From: Acidobacteriota bacterium
GTDB lineage: Bacteria > Acidobacteriota > Terriglobia > Terriglobales > Acidobacteriaceae
Direction of reading: 5' to 3'
Assembly: GCA_021793405.1 (NCBI GenBank)
Contig: JAJYSV010000023.1
Span: 1-53,591 of the forward strand
Length of the DNA stretch: 53,591 bases
Part shown: piece by piece, positions 45,240 through 52,150 of the stretch
How the letters are laid out: every line of letters begins with the position of its first letter
How positions within the stretch are numbered: the stretch's first letter is position 1
Position numbers and translations under genes: made by a program
Notes under the pieces: generated by a model
Told to the model about the DNA's origin: nothing
Database searches by the model: none
The model's input: only the letters and a program-made list of their open reading frames with translations

Positions 45240-46427
45240 TCAACCTTCGGAAGCCTGCTCCGCCGCAATAGCCTGCGGACCGGCAACCCGCGCCGCTGGA
45301 AATTGTTCCCGCGCATGCTTCAACGCCGGCAGCACCTGGTGCAGCCAGTTGCGGGTCGGCCGCTCCAGGAACCGATAGGCCAGCAGCGCGGCAACCTCCA
45401 GCATGAAATAGGAGATCCATGGATCGAAGCGCGCAATGTGCAGCCGAACCAGGATGCCGCTCTCGTGGATCCAGCGCCACAGGTTGAAGTGAAGAATGTA
45501 GAGGCAATAACTGGCCTCGCCCACCGCGACGAATAGCGGAAAACGCAGGACCCGCGTGATTGGATGATGTCCCGTCAGGCCCAGAATTGTAATGGCGAAC
45601 AACGGCGTGATCAGCCCATCGTGCATCAGCAGAAACGGCATCTTCTGTCCCTGCATCAACACCGTACACACAGTGCCCAGCCCTACAATCGCCAACCAGT
45701 AGCGAGTGCGATTCGCCAGCTGCATCCGGTCATTCAGTTTGGAGAGCACAATGCCGGCGGTAAACGTCGGCAGATGCGGCAGCGGCGTCATTTTTACCGC
45801 TCGCAGCCAGTAGCTGTTGGACATGCGAGTGATCGGCCCCAGCCCATCCGGCCGCACCCACATGTAGACCAACGGAACCACCAGCGAAGCCAGCCAGCAC
45901 CCTGCCAGGATCATCAGCAGCTTGCGTGTTTTCTGCGGCCATTTGATGGCCACCAGCATCGGAAACAGCAAATAGAACACCGTCTCGCAGGAGAGGGTCC
46001 AGGCCGGCGTGTTCCAGAACGTGCATAGCCTCGGGCTCCAGCCCTGCTGCATGATCGCCGTCAGCCCCACACCCTGAAAAAACTGCGCATGGGTCCGGTA
46101 TTTCCATTCCAGTTCCAGAATTGGAATCGAAATCAGCAGCCCCAGAAGATAAACCGGATACAGCCGCGAAAACCGCGTCTGCCAGAATTGCTTGCGGTCG
46201 AACTGGCCGGCATCCGATCGGTCGGAATAGTTGTAGGCGAGAATGAATCCAGACAAGAGAAAAAAGAAGTTCACGCCTACGTAACCGTTATCCATCATGG
46301 GAGCCAGCGGACCGAACCATGCCGGATTCCAAAAATGAAAGAACACGATATTAGTCGCGGTAAAGGCGCGGAGACCCGTCAGTGCGGGCATGACGGGCCG
46401 GCGTGGAATGGGAATCGCGAGTGCCAT
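45240..46427 (-). CDS. Acyltransferase 3 family membrane protein
   Basis: A membrane O-acyltransferase-type protein of 395 residues with about 10 membrane segments. LTGLRAFTATNIVFFHFW holds the conserved R and H, and GYVGVNFFFLLSGFIL and FWQTRFSRLYPVYLL are the typical next segments. Such enzymes acylate polysaccharides, lipids or antibiotics. ATG 46427 lies five bases after the pyrH stop, so the two are likely co-transcribed. Substrate unknown. Confidence 0.85.
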   Translation of the reverse strand: MALAIPIPRRPVMPALTGLRAFTATNIVFFHFWNPAWFGPLAPMMDNGYVGVNFFFLLSGFILAYNYSDRSDAGQFDRKQFWQTRFSRLYPVYLLGLLISIPILELEWKYRTHAQFFQGVGLTAIMQQGWSPRLCTFWNTPAWTLSCETVFYLLFPMLVAIKWPQKTRKLLMILAGCWLASLVVPLVYMWVRPDGLGPITRMSNSYWLRAVKMTPLPHLPTFTAGIVLSKLNDRMQLANRTRYWLAIVGLGTVCTVLMQGQKMPFLLMHDGLITPLFAITILGLTGHHPITRVLRFPLFVAVGEASYCLYILHFNLWRWIHESGILVRLHIARFDPWISYFMLEVAALLAYRFLERPTRNWLHQVLPALKHAREQFPAARVAGPQAIAAEQASEG

Positions 46428-46432
46428 TGTGC

Positions 46433-47137
46433 CTATGTAGTGACCAGGGAGCCAACTTTTTCGCCGGCAATCGCTCGTCGAATGTTGCCCGGTTGGTTCA
46501 TGCTGAAAATGATCATCGGCAGATCGTTGTCCTTGCAAAGACTTACGGCTGTCATGTCCATCACTCGCAGGTTCCTCTGCAGGATTTCCATGTAGCTGAT
46601 TTCGTCAAACTTGATCGCATCCTTATGCAGGACGGGATCGGCACTGTAAATGCCCTCCACCTTGGTGGCTTTCAGCAACACATCCGCCTTGATCTCCATC
46701 GCGCGAAGCGAGGCGGCGGTGTCGGTCGAAAAATATGGATTGCCGGTGCCGGCGGCAAAAATCACCACTCTTCCTTTTTCTAGATGCCGAATGGCTCGAC
46801 GACGGATGTACGGCTCCGAAACCTGGTTCATTTCAATGGCGCTCATCACGCGGCAAAAGACATTCTGCTTTTCCAGCGCATCCTGAATCGCCAAGGCGTT
46901 GATGATAGTCGCCAGCATGCCCATGTGATCCGCGGATACGCGATCCATTTCCTGTGCCTGCTCCGCCACCCCGCGGAAAAAATTGCCTCCGCCCACCACG
47001 ATCGCCAACTCCACGCCCATGGTATGCACATCAGCGATTTCCGCGGCGATTTCATGCACCCGTGTGACGTCGACCCCGAAGCCGCGGTCGGCGGCCAGCG
47101 CCTCGCCAGAAAGCTTAAGAAGAACTCGTTTGTACAT
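46433..47137 (-). CDS. pyrH: UMP kinase
   Basis: Phosphorylates UMP to UDP in pyrimidine synthesis. The 234-residue protein has the amino-acid-kinase fold: [73 protein letters not shown] and [22 protein letters not shown] 47137 is preceded by AAAAGG. It is in the same orientation as rplM-rpsI-rpsB-tsf, but separated from tsf by about 3.3 kb of other DNA. The upstream open frame to 47206 is not part of the protein. Confidence 0.96.
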
Positions 47138-47244
47138 GCCTTTTGAGTATCTCAGAAGTTGGACGAAGCGGGGAAATCGAACTCGTATGCCCGTAGATCT
47201 TCTCATCGTGATCTCGCGGTGGAACTGTTCTGGCGTCCCAAATG

Positions 47245-47250
47245 TATACT
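47245..47250 (+). promoter_or_regulatory. -10 box of the YVTN-propeller gene
   Basis: TATACT lies nine bases before ATG 47260, with no ribosome-binding site between. It overlaps another in-frame ATG (47242), which is therefore unlikely as the start. The transcript would be almost leaderless. Confidence 0.45.
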
Positions 47251-47259
47251 GCGTTTGCC

Positions 47260-48297
47260 ATGCGAAAGCCTATCTTGCTGTCTCTTCTACCTGCCGGTCT
47301 TTGCCTGACCTTCCTTTCGGTATCGGCCCGCGCACAGACCTCTGCTATAACCCCCTCCAAACCTGCCGCGCCGGTGTTATTGGTCATCAACCAGGGCGAC
47401 AAAAACGTCAGCATCGTGAATCCTGCAAGCGGCGAACAAGTTGCGACCATCTCCGAGGGCGTGACGGCCGTCCATGGCCATGAGGCAGCGGCATCACCCA
47501 ATGGCCGCATCGCTTATGTGCCCATCTACGGAAACGTCGGCGTAGGCAAGCCGGGACTGAATGGCCATGAAATGCTGGTCATCGATATTCCCACGCGCAC
47601 CATTATCCACCATGTCGAGTTCAGCCACGGCGTGCGGCCACATTGCGCGATCTATAACCCCCATGACGGAATGCTGTATGTGACCACGGAACTCGACAAG
47701 GATGTGACGATCATCGACCCGCATACGCTCAAAATTGTTGGCACGATTCCGACTGGGCAGGAACAGTCTCACATGCTGGCCATCTCGCATGATGGCCGCC
47801 ATGGGTACACCGCCAATGTGGGACCGGGCACCGTTTCGGTGCTGGATATAAAAGCGCGAAAGACACTTGCTGTCATTCCGATTTCGGCGGAGACACAGCG
47901 CATTTCCGTTTCGAACGACGACAGCATGGCTTTCACCTCCGACCAGAGGAAGCCTCAACTTGCCGTCATCGATACGGCCGCCAACAAGGTGAAAGCATGG
48001 GTTGCGTTGCCTGGATTGGGCTACGGAACAGCTTCCACCAAAGATGGACGCTCACTGCTGGTGGCGATTCCGGCGAAGGGCCTGGTCGCGGTCGTCGATC
48101 TCCACACCCTGAAAGTAGTACATACGATCGCGGTTCCCAGCGCGCCGCAGGAGATTCTGGTACGCCCGGATGGCAAGGTAGCCTATGTTTCCTGCAATGT
48201 GAAACATCAGGTGGCGGCGATCGATCTTTCGAACTGGAAGGTGCAGAAACTGATCGATGTGGGGGCGGGCGCGGACGGACTCGCCTGGGCGCGATGA
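47260..48297 (+). CDS. Exported YVTN/YncE-like beta-propeller protein
   Basis: A 345-residue exported protein with a signal peptide ([20 protein letters not shown]). Repeats such as [56 protein letters not shown] and [18 protein letters not shown] are the blades of a seven-bladed propeller of YVTN type. Role is binding or scaffold; some such proteins bind DNA or surfaces. No partner is adjacent. Divergent from pyrH. Confidence 0.8.
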
Positions 48298-48367
48298 GCA
48301 GGCGTGACGAATCGCGGACAATTTCGCCGCAAATAAAAGGGTAATGATCCCCTCAGAACAAGTTATC

Positions 48368-48373
48368 TATAAT
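48368..48373 (+). promoter_or_regulatory. -10 box of the tRNA-Leu-like gene
   Basis: A perfect TATAAT whose last base is six bases before the first base of the tRNA, so the transcript should begin at or near the tRNA's own 5' end. The -35 region (about 48345-48350, TGATCC) is weak. Confidence 0.6.
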
Positions 48374-48379
48374 AGCAAT

Positions 48380-48489
48380 GCGGCTGTGGTGAAATGGCAG
48401 ACACGGCGGGTTGCCTGAGCGCCTTCGACGAGGACGCTGAGGAACCCGCCGAGCGCAAGCTCGTGGGGGTTCAAGTCCCCTCAGCCGTA
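48380..48489 (+). tRNA. tRNA-Leu-like gene with an enlarged anticodon arm
   Basis: The 110-nt gene folds as a class II tRNA except for one arm. Acceptor: 48380-48386 with 48482-48488 (seven pairs, one G-T), discriminator A 48489, no encoded CCA. D stem GTG/CAC (48389-48391, 48402-48404). Variable arm CGAGC-GCAA-GCTCG (48450-48463). T arm 48465-48481 with loop TTCAAGT. The anticodon stem is GCGGG/CCCGC (48406-48410, 48445-48449), but its loop is 34 nt (48411-48444) instead of 7. That loop continues the helix: TT/AA, then CCT/AGG, AGCG/CGCT, CC/GG with small bulges and a G-G mismatch, closing on TTCGACGA. The long variable arm and A73 suggest leucine; the anticodon cannot be assigned. Confidence 0.75.
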
Positions 48490-48490
48490 C

Positions 48491-49087
48491 TCATTTCAGG
48501 TCTAGTAGGTGTTGGGAAGAGAGTCTTACAGGATCTTGCGATTGAATCAGCAAGTCCGTCCTTTGGTAGTCCCTGTCCCAACGCTGTAGCACATCGCAAT
48601 TGCGCGAGAGGGCGGACGCGACATGGAGAGAATCCGCAGCTTTCATATTGTGACTCCGGGCAATTTCGGCTGCTCTATGTGAAATGGAGGGGATGACCTG
48701 TATCTTTTTGATCCATGGCCACTCGAACATCTGCTTGATTTTTACCGCGTGCGCCTCCGAAAGATGTCTTGTTGGGAGGGTATTCCGTTTGTAGTAAGTC
48801 CAAATCTTCTCAAATTCTCCCGGCGCTTCTGGATGTATAGCATTTCCGTCTTTGTCTGTTCCTTTGAGCAATTCTGCCCAAAGAGGAACAGGGAAGGGCT
48901 GAAACGGCGCTTTTGGCCGAATCGTTTCTACGATAGTCCACACAGAAGTCCATATTTCAATTTCGTCGTTTCTGGCGTGTTTGAGTATGTCTTCGCAGAT
49001 CAACGCCCTCGCGACTTCGTCTGGATGGGTGCCGCTCAGGTAGCTAATAAAACAGCTAGTGTCCCAATAGACTTTTCGGGGTGCCAT
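48491..49087 (-). CDS. PIN-domain ribonuclease-like protein
   Basis: A 198-residue protein of the PIN superfamily, which includes VapC toxins. Candidate metal-binding residues are D9 (YWDTSCFISYL), E54 (TIVETIRPK), D152 (KAADSLHVASAL) and D171/D173 (RWDRDYQR). It is longer than typical VapC (about 130), with an insert near 70-105. Its ATG overlaps the previous stop by one base (TGATG), so the two are translationally coupled. Its stop codon begins one base after the 3' end of the convergent tRNA-like gene. The DNA is AT-richer than the ribosomal genes nearby, suggesting acquisition. Confidence 0.8.
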   Translation of the reverse strand: MAPRKVYWDTSCFISYLSGTHPDEVARALICEDILKHARNDEIEIWTSVWTIVETIRPKAPFQPFPVPLWAELLKGTDKDGNAIHPEAPGEFEKIWTYYKRNTLPTRHLSEAHAVKIKQMFEWPWIKKIQVIPSISHRAAEIARSHNMKAADSLHVASALSRNCDVLQRWDRDYQRTDLLIQSQDPVRLSSQHLLDLK

Positions 49088-49875
49088 CAATCACAGTCCT
49101 CAAAGAACTCTTTCAGAGATAGACCGCCAGTAAAATCAGGAATCAGTCCTCGCATTTCCTCAATCGTTGGAAGTCTGGTGGGATTCAAGATTGAATCGAA
49201 AGTTTCCACCGTCATGGATAGAGGTCTACCATAACGATCGGCTTTTACCATGCCAGTCACCAATACCCTCACTCCCAAAAGCTCCATCGCTTGGGCCTTT
49301 TGCTTGGGCTGAAGGTAGCAGCGAACTGGTCTCTTAGATTCCTCATCCCACACGCGAAATTCCAAGCCACGATGTACGGAAATAGTGTCCAAGTTTCCCA
49401 CAACAGTTCCAAACGATACGGACTTTGGGCTCGTGAGGTCTTGAACCTGCGACAGCGTTTTGATGGTCACAGTAGTAGTCAAGGTCCGCGAGTCTCGTAC
49501 ATCCGTGTAAATAGCGGATGCGCCCATTTTAGGAGCAGTTTTAGCTATCCTTTCTACCCTCGTCAATGCAGCGTCGGACAGAAACTTGTTTCTCTCCCCG
49601 CGGGCGGTAAGCGAATCGATATTCGCGATGACCTGCCGTCCGACTATTTCGCTCGTGTCACGGACGGCGCGGCGCAGCGAGGGCGTCACCCCTATGATCG
49701 GCGAAGGATTATTTTGCAGCGTCGTTACACGCCAGCGAAGATTGCCGCTTTTTCTTTCAGCGACGGAAGAATCAACTTCCTGAAGAAGTCCTAGAAAGTT
49801 TCCAGTTGCGCGAACAAACTCCTGTAGATCAACGGTGTTTCCCTCGCCAACACGCATGAAGATCGATTCGGCCAT
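49087..49875 (-). CDS. Partner protein of the PIN nuclease, unrecognised family
   Basis: I do not recognise a named domain. The 262-residue protein begins MAESIFMRVGEGNTVDLQEF, has a helical region with LGLLQEVDSSVAERKSG, then a likely beta-rich middle (IYTDVRD, TTTVTIKTLSQVQDL, VSFGTVVGNLDTISVHRG) and LLGVRVLVTGMVKADRYGRP, and ends in an acidic tail (LPTIEEMRGLIPDFTGG ... EFFEDCD). The tail could contact the PIN protein, as antitoxin tails do, but this is inference. ATG 49875 is preceded by GAGGAT. It is the first gene of a two-gene operon with the PIN gene. A toxin-antitoxin-type unit is possible; it is unusually long for an antitoxin. Confidence 0.65.
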   Translation of the reverse strand: MAESIFMRVGEGNTVDLQEFVRATGNFLGLLQEVDSSVAERKSGNLRWRVTTLQNNPSPIIGVTPSLRRAVRDTSEIVGRQVIANIDSLTARGERNKFLSDAALTRVERIAKTAPKMGASAIYTDVRDSRTLTTTVTIKTLSQVQDLTSPKSVSFGTVVGNLDTISVHRGLEFRVWDEESKRPVRCYLQPKQKAQAMELLGVRVLVTGMVKADRYGRPLSMTVETFDSILNPTRLPTIEEMRGLIPDFTGGLSLKEFFEDCD

Positions 49876-50008
49876 GGCGCTATCCTCGCAGTGATAAGCT
49901 TCCGGTAGGCCGCAGATTGCACTCGGTGTTTGCGTCACCGGGGACAAAACATGCGGAAGGCGCAGGCAAAATCGTCAGAACAGAAATGAGAATCACCATC
50001 ACACCCGT

Positions 50009-50302
50009 TCACGCGGGTTGACTATCACAACTTAGTTGAAGCGGGTTATTGCGACACCCGCTCAGAACCTGCTCCAAAAGCGAAGTGAACATCGGCTGTC
50101 CAGCATTCCTGCGGTTACACCGGAAACTATACTCGTCTAAGTAGGTTTGCAGGTATTTTTTGCTGACCGAATGGTATACCCGGCCGATACCCCTCGTTAC
50201 GAAACTCAAGAACCGCTCAATCGTACTCTTGTTGGTGTCGCCCACAACGTAGGCTCCCGCACTTTGATTGATGAGGCGATGTGGTGTCGTTAACACTTTC
50301 AA
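50009..50302 (-). pseudogene. IS1595-family transposase remnant (C-terminal part)
   Basis: The frame encodes the end of a transposase of the ISXO2/IS1595 type: GDTNKSTIERFLSFVTRGI then GRVYHSVSKKYLQTYLDEYS and FRCNRRNAG. The N-terminal zinc ribbon and most of the catalytic core are missing, and no full transposase lies upstream. Small inverted repeats flank the end (49999-50014 and 50039-50060), but no clear terminal repeats or target duplication could be set. It marks past insertion between tsf and the PIN module. Confidence 0.75.
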
Positions 50303-50342
50303 GACCCTAGTACGATGCTAACTCAGTGGATAACCGCAAAAC

Positions 50343-50371
50343 AAAAAAGCCCGACCGGAGTCGGGCTTTTT
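50343..50371. terminator. Rho-independent terminator after tsf
   Basis: GCCCGAC (50349-50355) pairs with GTCGGGC (50360-50366) around CGGA, flanked by AAAAAA and TTTTT, so it can work on both strands. It ends the rpsB-tsf unit. Confidence 0.9.
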
Positions 50372-50404
50372 GTTTGAAGAGGAAGGCCGTCTAGCGCCTG
50401 CGGT

Positions 50405-51049
50405 TTATGCAGTCGTCTTGATCTGCGCAATGGTCCAGTTGGCGTCGCCAACCTTGAAACGGGCGAAGCGGCGCACCACGATGTTTTCCCCCAGCTTGCC
50501 GACCTTCTGCGCGATCAACTGGGCGATAGTCACGGTCTGCTCCTTGATGAACGGCTGCTCCAGCAGGCAGACTTCCTCGTAGAACTTCGACATTTTTCCT
50601 TCGACGATTTTTTCAATCACCGGAGCGGGCTTGCCGGTCTGCGCAGCCTGTGCGCGATAGATATCCTTCTCGCGTTCCAGGTCTTCCGGGGTCACGTCTT
50701 CCTTGCGGATGTAGCGCGGATCGGTGGCTGCGATATGCATGGCGATATCCTTCAGCAGTTCTTGAAAATCGGGGGTACGGGCGACAAAATCGCTTTCGCA
50801 GTTCACCTCAATCAACACGCCAATCTTGCCGCCGGCGTGGATGTAGGTTCCCACCGCGCCTTCGCTGGCGGTACGGCTGGCCTTCTTCGCGGCCGACGCC
50901 ATCCCCCGTTTGCGCAGCACGACCACAGCTTCTTCCATGTCGCCTTTTGCTTCTGTCAGAGCATTGCGGCAGTCCATCATAGGAGCGCCGGTTTTCTCGC
51001 GCAGCTCCTTCACCATTGCGGCTGAAATTGTTTCCGTCACGGATGACAT
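50405..51049 (-). CDS. tsf: Elongation factor Ts
   Basis: The guanine-nucleotide exchange factor of EF-Tu. From ATG 51049 it has 214 residues, the shorter form common outside Enterobacteria (E. coli 283). The UBA-like N-domain has VKELREKTGAPMMDCRNAL, followed by KGDMEEAVVVLRKRG and IEVNCESDFVART, then the C-terminal FYEEVCLLEQPFIKEQTVT. GTG 51040 would be a better-spaced start after AAGGA. It is downstream of rpsB, with a repeat pair between. Confidence 0.96.
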   Translation of the reverse strand: MSSVTETISAAMVKELREKTGAPMMDCRNALTEAKGDMEEAVVVLRKRGMASAAKKASRTASEGAVGTYIHAGGKIGVLIEVNCESDFVARTPDFQELLKDIAMHIAATDPRYIRKEDVTPEDLEREKDIYRAQAAQTGKPAPVIEKIVEGKMSKFYEEVCLLEQPFIKEQTVTIAQLIAQKVGKLGENIVVRRFARFKVGDANWTIAQIKTTA

Positions 51050-51094
51050 CCTTTTTACGTCCAATCTTAGAATTTTGGCTATGGAAAGTGAGAG

Positions 51095-51208
51095 TTGTCA
51101 TTCTGAACGGAGGTCGCCATGGCGACCGAAGTGAAGAATCCAGAGCTTCCTCGCCTCGCAAGAGGAGCCATTACCGCTTTGGATTCTTCGCTGCGCTCAG
51201 AGTGACAA
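51095..51208. repeat. Inverted pair of GAATCC-core interspersed repeats
   Basis: TTGTCATTCTGA (51095-51106) with GAAGAATCCAGAG (51132-51144), then the inverse TTTGGATTCTTCGCTGCG (from 51178) and TCAGAGTGACAA (51197-51208). The outer arms can pair in the rpsB-tsf mRNA. The same repeat family occurs at 20643-20717. Confidence 0.75.
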
Positions 51209-51241
51209 ACCTATTTCAATTGCAGCGTCGCTGAACCAGCG

Positions 51242-52150
51242 TTAGACGCCGCTCTCGGCAGCGGCGGCTTCGGGCTCATCCGCAATTGCAGAAACGGCGG
51301 ACGGAGCCTTGCGAATCCCGCCGCCCAGCGCCTGTTCCAGATCGACATCTTCATCGGCCAGTTCGGGATCGTACTTGGCTGCATTGAAGCTATCCGGAGC
51401 GCCATCGCCAGCGGCTTCGTCTGCGCTGGCCGTTACGCCGGCAAGCTCGGCCTGCTGCTTGTCGCCGCTCATCTGCACACCTTCGACGATCGAATCCGCG
51501 ACTTTGGAGGTGAACAGGCGAATGGCGCGCAGCGCATCATCGTTGCCCGGAATAATGTAGTCCACCAGCGTGGGATCGCAATTCGTGTCGACCACGGCGA
51601 CCACGGGAATGCCCAGCTTGCGAGCTTCCTTCACCGCGATGGTTTCATTGTTCGAATCGACCACGAACAGCGCATCCGGCAAGCGCCGCATGTTCTTGAT
51701 ACCGGCCAGATTCGCTTGCAGATGCTTGCGCTCGCGTTCCAGCTTGATGACTTCTTTCTTCGTCATCAGGTCGTATCGGCCGTCGGTGGCCATCTCATCC
51801 AGTTCCTGAAGGCGCTTCACAGACTTCTGCACGGTCGTCCAATTGGTCAACAGACCGCCCAGCCAACGCTGATTGATGTAGAACATGCCGCAACGGGTAG
51901 CCTCTTCGGCAATAGCATCCTGCGCCTGCCGCTTGGTGCCGACAAACAATATCGTCTTGCCATCGAGAGCCAGGTCGGTCACATACTTGCTGGCTTCCTT
52001 GAACATCTTCAAGGTCTTTTGCAGATCGATGATGTAAATCCCGTTCCGTTCGCCAAAGATATATTCCTTCATCCTTGGGTTCCAGCGCTTCGTCTGATGC
52101 CCGAAGTGGACTCCCGCTTCGAGCAGTTCCTTCATGGTGATAGTGGCCAA
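51242..52150 (-). CDS. rpsB: 30S ribosomal protein S2
   Basis: S2 binds the 30S head-body junction and is needed for S1 binding. The 302-residue protein begins at TTG 52150 with AGGAGG four bases upstream. Typical segments: [51 protein letters not shown] and [26 protein letters not shown]-like end. The C-terminal 70 residues are an acidic Ala/Glu/Asp-rich tail not found in E. coli S2. First gene of the rpsB-tsf pair. Confidence 0.97.

Follow-up and report, generated by a model that had tools for sequence, protein, structure and literature searches.

The window analysed here, a stretch of 53,591 nucleotides (nt) from an acidobacterial genome of 4.6 Mb in 137 contigs, carries on its forward strand (positions 48380-48489) the gene of a tRNA-Leu-like RNA of 110 nt, running from G1 to A73, in which a long hairpin takes the place of the anticodon arm. 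We propose, with a probability of about 0.4, that this is a mobile, structured and non-decoding RNA originating from a leucine-type tRNA, and that it probably counters a PIN or DUF4411 nuclease, acting either as a decoy or as an RNA antidote. The data presented below establish the structure of the RNA, its recurrence in other genomes with stems that have changed yet remained paired, its insertion into a site that is empty in a relative, its tight convergent linkage to toxin-type genes and the conservation of the catalytic residues of the neighbouring PIN nuclease.

The coordinates given for the gene in the first-pass annotation of this stretch are correct, and the assignment is based on the pairing of the arms and on a match to the Rfam tRNA model. 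Specifically, the acceptor stem forms 7/7 pairs, with G1.U72 as a wobble; the D stem has 3 base pairs (bp); the variable arm, CGAGC-GCAA-GCTCG plus one base (48450-48464), belongs to class II by reading and by alignment to the Rfam model; and the T arm, GGGGG-TTCAAGT-CCCCT (48465-48481), forms 5/5 pairs, one of them G.U, with A73 present at the end of the RNA. The earlier statement that all the class II arms other than the anticodon arm are intact is thus borne out by both pairing and tRNA model, wobble pairs in the acceptor and T stems included. In the hairpin (48406-48449) the ordinary 5-bp stem is continued by a folding loop of 34 nt, compared to the 7 nt of an ordinary tRNA-Leu, for a total of 18 pairs with the ordinary five counted in, which confirms the extended stem described at first pass. 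This 34-nt loop is more stable than its own shuffles (z -3.97, 0/300 as good), and the same holds for bases 48381-48489 as a whole (z -4.03, 0/200 as good); a chance hairpin is rejected by these folding energies. A TATAAT hexamer (48368-48373, forward strand), previously noticed as a well-spaced -10 box, does lie 6 nt before G1 and is a candidate for that role, while a promoter scanner found no full sigma-70-type promoter upstream of the RNA.

When the Rfam tRNA model was run in E-value mode over 501 bases, a full-length match was obtained at 39.5 bits, against a cut-off of 29, and a search of the genome agrees. No call was made by ARAGORN for the window RNA, and cmscan in gathering mode reported nothing for the window; the latter mode misses most copies of this RNA, since it recovered one (L270, in genome G210) from ten sources of which five hold a copy. 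The third acceptor pair of the window RNA is G-C, which rules against its identity with tmRNA, an RNA characterised by an alanine-type G3:U70 pair.

The genome also contains normal leucine tRNA genes with the anticodons TAA, TAG, CAA, CAG (two genes) and GAG, and this set excludes the window RNA as the sole carrier of a leucine anticodon; the RNA is extra to translation. It has the 7/5 acceptor/T stems, the class II variable arm and the A73 of a tRNA-Leu, and an ordinary tRNA-Leu is nevertheless rejected by the 34-nt loop and by the lack of a leucine anticodon after excision to 7 nt. Our recomputation returned exactly the anticodons previously listed for the removal of 27 contiguous bases (AGG, GGG, GCG or GCC, never leucine); the excision of 26 bases leaves GAG, but in an 8-nt loop. 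From position 8 to the end of the D arm, all 18 bases (TGGTGAAATGGCAGACAC, 48387-48404, forward strand) are the same as in the host tRNA-Leu(GAG) and unlike those of the other four host leucine types. In addition, acceptor pairs 5 and 6 are changed on both sides with respect to tRNA-Leu(GAG), with pairing kept. Because of this shared D arm and of these two-sided changes, the window RNA probably derives, as judged from its sequence, from a leucine tRNA with its pairing maintained. CCA is encoded in all six normal leucine genes found in the host and not in the window RNA.

Relatives were sought in the same Acidobacteriota family with a pattern of leucine-type D and T arms spaced too far apart; searches keyed to these arms will overlook variants. 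Matches were found in 13/398 family genomes, and six of these genomes, that of the window among them, have the hairpin-bearing RNA in full (G000, G111, G154, G206, G210 and G292). The other seven (G162, G242, G361, G282, G307, G347 and G374) were excluded, stretches L281, L285, L286 and L287 having failed the scanner and L067, L068 and L072 the pairing filter; with a stricter form of the pattern six genomes matched and three were excluded (G162, G242 and G361). A seventh family copy, interrupted by a contig end (L345, in G126), came from a scan of 85 genomes in which it was the only genome with a copy and two of three matches were excluded. A scan of 84,980 genomes returned 48 stretches, of which three have the hairpin design, two already known and one from Chloroflexota (L203); among the 45 excluded, L216 and L220 had passed the pairing filter; they comprise a tandem piece and a tRNA whose anticodon arm is normal. 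Finally, among 396 genomes of the phylum a stricter T-arm pattern matched five, with the hairpin design in the window copy only; in the other four, L246, L247 and L249 failed the scanner and two stretches of G461 were judged by eye. Seven relatives of the window RNA were therefore found, six in the same family, one of them incomplete, and the element is rare and scattered.

Counting the window RNA, seven copies are complete; each forms 7/7 acceptor and 5/5 T pairs, and their hairpins comprise 17-21 pairs in sequences that are mostly different, with loop energies ranging against shuffles from z -1.4 (L203, 28/300 as good) to z -6.1 (G111). In the lower, anticodon stem, pairs differ on both sides between copies. 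This stem holds five G-T and zero A-C pairs across copies, a small number, which suggests that the tRNA strand is the structured one. These features bear on the idea that the gene is a recent pseudogene of tRNA-Leu whose anticodon loop has received a palindrome. A D arm equal to that of the host tRNA-Leu(GAG), a broken transposase nearby and a presence in 1/10 genomes of the genus would all suit it; yet seven relatives, spread over other genera and a second phylum, share the design, the complete ones with their other arms intact, and the altered acceptor pairs 5 and 6 are still paired, so that we consider such a pseudogene highly improbable.

A leucine-charged RNA working outside ordinary decoding, for instance as an amino-acid donor, would be compatible with A73, which is found in 6/7 complete copies and speaks for compatibility with charging only, and leucyl-tRNA synthetase does not read the anticodon. 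However, no enzyme that could use the charged RNA was recognised beside the window RNA, CCA is encoded in 4/7 complete copies (G111, G206, G210 and L203), and G292 has G73; we regard this role as improbable.

The proposal of a decoy or RNA antidote draws on the position of the gene. In four of the six complete family copies, the RNA abuts a two-gene module of toxin type, tail to tail with the second of its genes and 1-13 nt from the stop codon of that gene. In the window this gene encodes a VapC-like PIN-domain nuclease (48491-49090, reverse strand; PF01850, 2.3e-8), convergent with the RNA gene and separated from it by 1 nt, and its partner gene (49087-49947, reverse strand) encodes a protein of 286 amino acids, here called u286, which belongs to no Pfam, PADLOC or NCBIfam family and has a modelled OB fold at residues 173-260. 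The G210 copy shows the order of the window, namely transposase, u286, PIN (PF01850) and RNA, with 13 nt from PIN to RNA, while in G154 and G206 the RNA follows, tail to tail, a module composed of an M78-peptidase-type gene and a DUF4411 gene, with gaps of 2 nt and 13 nt. In G292 the RNA also adjoins a two-gene operon, of PIN_12 type, but divergently. These gene families are rare in the genomes concerned, DUF4411 accounting for 29 stretches in 300 genomes (two being pieces of one gene) and u286 being present in 6/300, and chance abutment is, on a rough estimate of ~1e-6 per RNA, negligible. The first-pass suggestion of an RNA that resembles a tRNA without decoding in the normal way, or of a decoy, fits these observations, in that relatives keep skeleton and hairpin and toxin-type genes abut four of the six.

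Both proteins of the window module were further inspected through alignments and structural models. Residues D10, E55, D153 and D172 of the PIN protein are invariant in 6/6 aligned relatives. The best match of its model (mean pLDDT 76.7) is a PIN toxin taken from a toxin-antitoxin complex (Z 14.3, rmsd 2.4, 136 aligned), followed closely by VapC of VapBC15 (Z 13.5, rmsd 2.4, 124 aligned), and Foldseek likewise returned toxin-antitoxin PIN matches (best 2.1e-5). For the u286 model (mean pLDDT 78.1, pTM 0.60) Foldseek gave no match at <=0.001; VIA-align matched PriB (Z 9.5, rmsd 2.8, 72 aligned) and, with similar values, many OB folds, over residues 173-260 only, a likeness from which we claim no function. 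No u286 relative was matched in plasmids, phages or viral contigs. In the G154 and G206 modules the first gene matches PADLOC RmrA models (best 1.2e-13 and 1.8e-17), the DUF4411 proteins match no PADLOC model, and solved DUF4411 structures exist (9vzy and 9vzz).

On these grounds we find a decoy or RNA antidote the most economical explanation, because a look-alike of an anticodon arm, mounted on a stable tRNA frame, recurs at the ends of toxin-type genes. The RNA would be transcribed from its own start and would fold as a tRNA, a fold expected to bring stability, processing by RNase P and RNase Z and perhaps CCA addition. It would then bind the nuclease, presenting it with an anticodon-arm look-alike whose cutting would cost the cell nothing, and would protect the cell by titrating or inhibiting the toxin, as a decoy or as an RNA antidote alongside the protein partner. 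A few types of toxin are known to have RNA antidotes; to our knowledge, no tRNA-shaped RNA antidote is known for a PIN toxin.

The gene also shows signs of mobility. A stretch of ~2.04 kb (48304-50342) has no counterpart in G005, a member of the same genus in which the beta-propeller gene and tsf are separated by 93 nt with no insertion; its cargo consists of the tRNA-like gene, the PIN gene, the u286 gene and a piece of an IS1595-type transposase. Specifically, a C-terminal fragment of an IS1595/ISXO2-type transposase is encoded at 50009-50302 on the reverse strand (PF12762, 3.1e-10), and an IS1595-type terminal inverted repeat (48340-48365, forward strand) shares 23/26 bases with the right end of an element in G027, a score reached by 0/1000 shuffles. 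This G027 element (L275) carries a long IS1595-type transposase followed by PIN and u286 relatives, with inverted ends and an 8-bp target duplication, and has no RNA; long transposase proteins with both Pfam domains occur in G210, G027 and G154. From its sequence context, the window RNA gene looks like part of the remains of a small mobile element. In nine other genomes of the genus, 72-98% complete, we found no match to a 25-base piece of the RNA with <=3 mismatches, nor to the relaxed arm pattern. Of the outcomes the first-pass annotation had named as damaging, the first, absence from close relatives, thus holds at the genus level (1/10 genomes with the RNA), but the empty site in G005 points to mobility and not to decay.

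The same evidence may be turned to another explanation, in which mobile DNA carries the RNA for a purpose that has nothing to do with toxins, such as regulation or a transposon end, or in which the inverted repeat merely terminates the transcription of the neighbour. In its favour, the window RNA sits just inside an IS1595-type end, IS1595-type transposases lie near the G210 and G154 copies, two pieces of the phage-integrase family lie ~0.7 kb from the Chloroflexota copy (L203), and the majority of the toxin-type modules have no RNA. We nevertheless hold this explanation to be unlikely, though not remote: the RNA abuts the second gene in modules of two different types, intact acceptor, D and T arms would be needless in a terminator, and the G-T bias of the lower anticodon stem, albeit resting on a small number, favours the tRNA strand.

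A further step, which we put forward tentatively and with less confidence than the decoy or antidote itself, is a three-part toxin system in which the anticodon-less tRNA-shaped RNA would be the antidote or sensor for a tRNA-cutting nuclease. The hairpin would imitate the anticodon arm of whichever tRNA the toxin cuts, perhaps tRNA-Gly(GCC), and the RNA cassette would move between different modules and lodge behind the toxin gene, at its 3' end. Removal of a single stretch from the loop can yield the anticodon GCC in 7/8 copies, six of them as TTGCCAA, which is the loop of the host tRNA-Gly(GCC). The 42 ARAGORN records of the host gave 35 distinct anticodon loops, and of these the Gly(GCC) loop shares most with the hairpins (score 52, next 36, mean 31). 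Keeping three letters fixed at each loop end, a score of 52 was reached in 0/5000 shuffles and the probability of 7/8 copies yielding GCC was 0.0006. These values are too small and overstate the signal, because the copies share ancestry, and we read the comparison as a lead and not as proof: it suggests that tRNA-Gly(GCC) could be the natural target of the toxin.

The recurrent GCC could also be produced by a tRNA whose hairpin is an intron, or an otherwise excised piece, giving a normal or missense tRNA. The loop TTGCCAA, and with it the anticodon GCC, does occur in class II leucine-like tRNAs of viral origin (L336, L329 and L343). Nevertheless, the copies share no splice point, the cut falling by reading after TTG, TTGC, TTGCC or TTGCCAA; a leucine anticodon in a 7-nt loop is obtainable for G292 alone (1/7); for 5/8 copies, 42-54% of the shuffles that keep three letters at each end should contain GCC anyway; and the usual leucine anticodons are all served by other host genes. 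An intron-containing tRNA is rejected in so far as removal of one stretch does not restore a fitting anticodon at a common site, and we consider an excised hairpin very improbable indeed.

By comparing the window with known systems, both likenesses and differences emerge. The window module resembles VapBC in having two genes, one of them for a PIN nuclease that keeps its acidic residues and whose model is VapC-like. The VapBC partner, VapB, is a small, DNA-binding antitoxin, whereas here the partner is a 286-residue protein with a modelled OB fold, and an RNA gene is added. In type III toxin-antitoxin systems the RNA antitoxin consists of short tandem repeats before the toxin gene; this layout was rejected, as no close-set direct repeats were found in 46400-51300 and the RNA follows the toxin gene. 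The G154 and G206 modules, with a first gene matching RmrA models followed by DUF4411, are akin to the RosmerTA-type defence module, to which we take the PADLOC family RmrA to belong; for 27/29 DUF4411 stretches, the <=1.5 kb examined on either side contains no hairpin-bearing RNA. In engineered tRNA scaffolds a cargo hairpin replaces the anticodon arm and the rest of the tRNA is left intact. The window RNA has the same layout, but it is natural, lies in mobile DNA and is linked to toxin-type genes. RNA C of phage T4 is likewise a small stable RNA with a tRNA-type T arm, and differs by the lack of a leucine-type D arm and by a middle that is, on reading, longer and different.

As far as the accessible text of a review goes, irregular acidobacterial tRNAs have been suggested to go with transposons or toxin-antitoxin systems (PMC7609411). 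The idea of such an association is therefore prior, and what is shown here is the direct linkage to toxin-type genes. The accessible text also reports, on allo-tRNAs (Mukai et al. 2017), that some could not serve in translation in E. coli and that one overlaps a transposon-related gene (PMC7609411). Like the window RNA, allo-tRNAs are odd class II-like tRNA genes found, among others, in Acidobacteria; as described there, they have 8/4 or 9/3 acceptor/T stems, a mostly serine-type identity and an anticodon (PMC7609411), whereas the window RNA has 7/5 stems, a leucine-type D arm and a hairpin replacing the anticodon. An allo-tRNA was rejected on the stems, which have 7/5 pairs in all seven complete copies. 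Phage tRNAs are described, in the accessible parts of two papers, as countering tRNA-cutting defences (PMC11555353, PMC10264068). The role proposed here is similar, a mobile element supplying a tRNA that blunts a tRNA-cutting effector, but the phage tRNAs, as presented in those parts, carry anticodons, and of the kind that is cut, while the window RNA has no usable one. Toxin-antitoxin cargo in Tn3 transposons is already known, according to the accessible text of PMC7157771. Among the matches listed from the open literature, with subscription papers mostly outside its scope, no hairpin-bearing leucine-like tRNA accompanied by a PIN gene was found.

No near copy of the RNA was found in phages: 117/50,697 records match at E <=1, none spanning 80% of the query, and 16 of the 25 matches listed fall under an annotated tRNA-Leu. 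A first viral scan for the hairpin design gave two stretches, neither of which fits by reading, L129 being a leucine-like RNA with a longer middle; a second gave six, with no copy of the hairpin design recorded and L244 and L245 left out of the reading. Among the matches listed over the pattern searches, 62 distinct hits have paired acceptor and T arms, 59 of them viral, and 44 of these 59 lack, by a simple test, the ordinary anticodon arm of 5 bp and 7 nt. A few viral hits, such as L094 and L101, resemble chance composites, and in L150 and L128 the loop of the anticodon arm appears by eye complementary to that of the variable arm; viral loci such as L150, L128, L140 and L175 may form a separate class of phage RNAs. 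Also by eye, L005, L023 and L020 are 3' halves of leucine tRNAs following sequence with the look of an intron end or of the end of an integrated element, and L021 (in G008) contains at ~963-988 a broken tRNA-Leu(GAG)-like 5' half running into unrelated sequence.

Several observations weigh against an RNA decoy or antidote for these nucleases. The single-sequence minimum-energy fold contains the acceptor stem, the hairpin and the variable arm and lacks the D and T arms, and for this reason the evidence for a cloverleaf comes from the tRNA model and from arm pairing. The RNA accompanies 2/29 DUF4411 stretches and 2/7 u286 loci, window included; since most such modules are without it, the toxin does not need the RNA. 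No PIN family was found in five neighbours of the G111 copy, one of which is an Eco57I-type methylase, nor in four neighbours of L203. DUF4411 is presumably PIN-like; 2/8 members match PF01850, weakly (best 5.7e-4), and a profile comparison with the window PIN family gave no match (probability 0.3%). As for the putative target, the window copy shares 5/9 bases with the Gly(GCC) loop, and G292 shares three. As for mobility, the window element has a broken transposase, and no left inverted repeat was found for it, the best candidate being matched by 387/1000 shuffles.

In conclusion, if the proposal of a decoy or RNA antidote is true, it would account for some of the irregular tRNAs of soil bacteria and would predict what such toxins cut. 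In addition, the window RNA would then represent a natural tRNA scaffold, testable in a laboratory strain.
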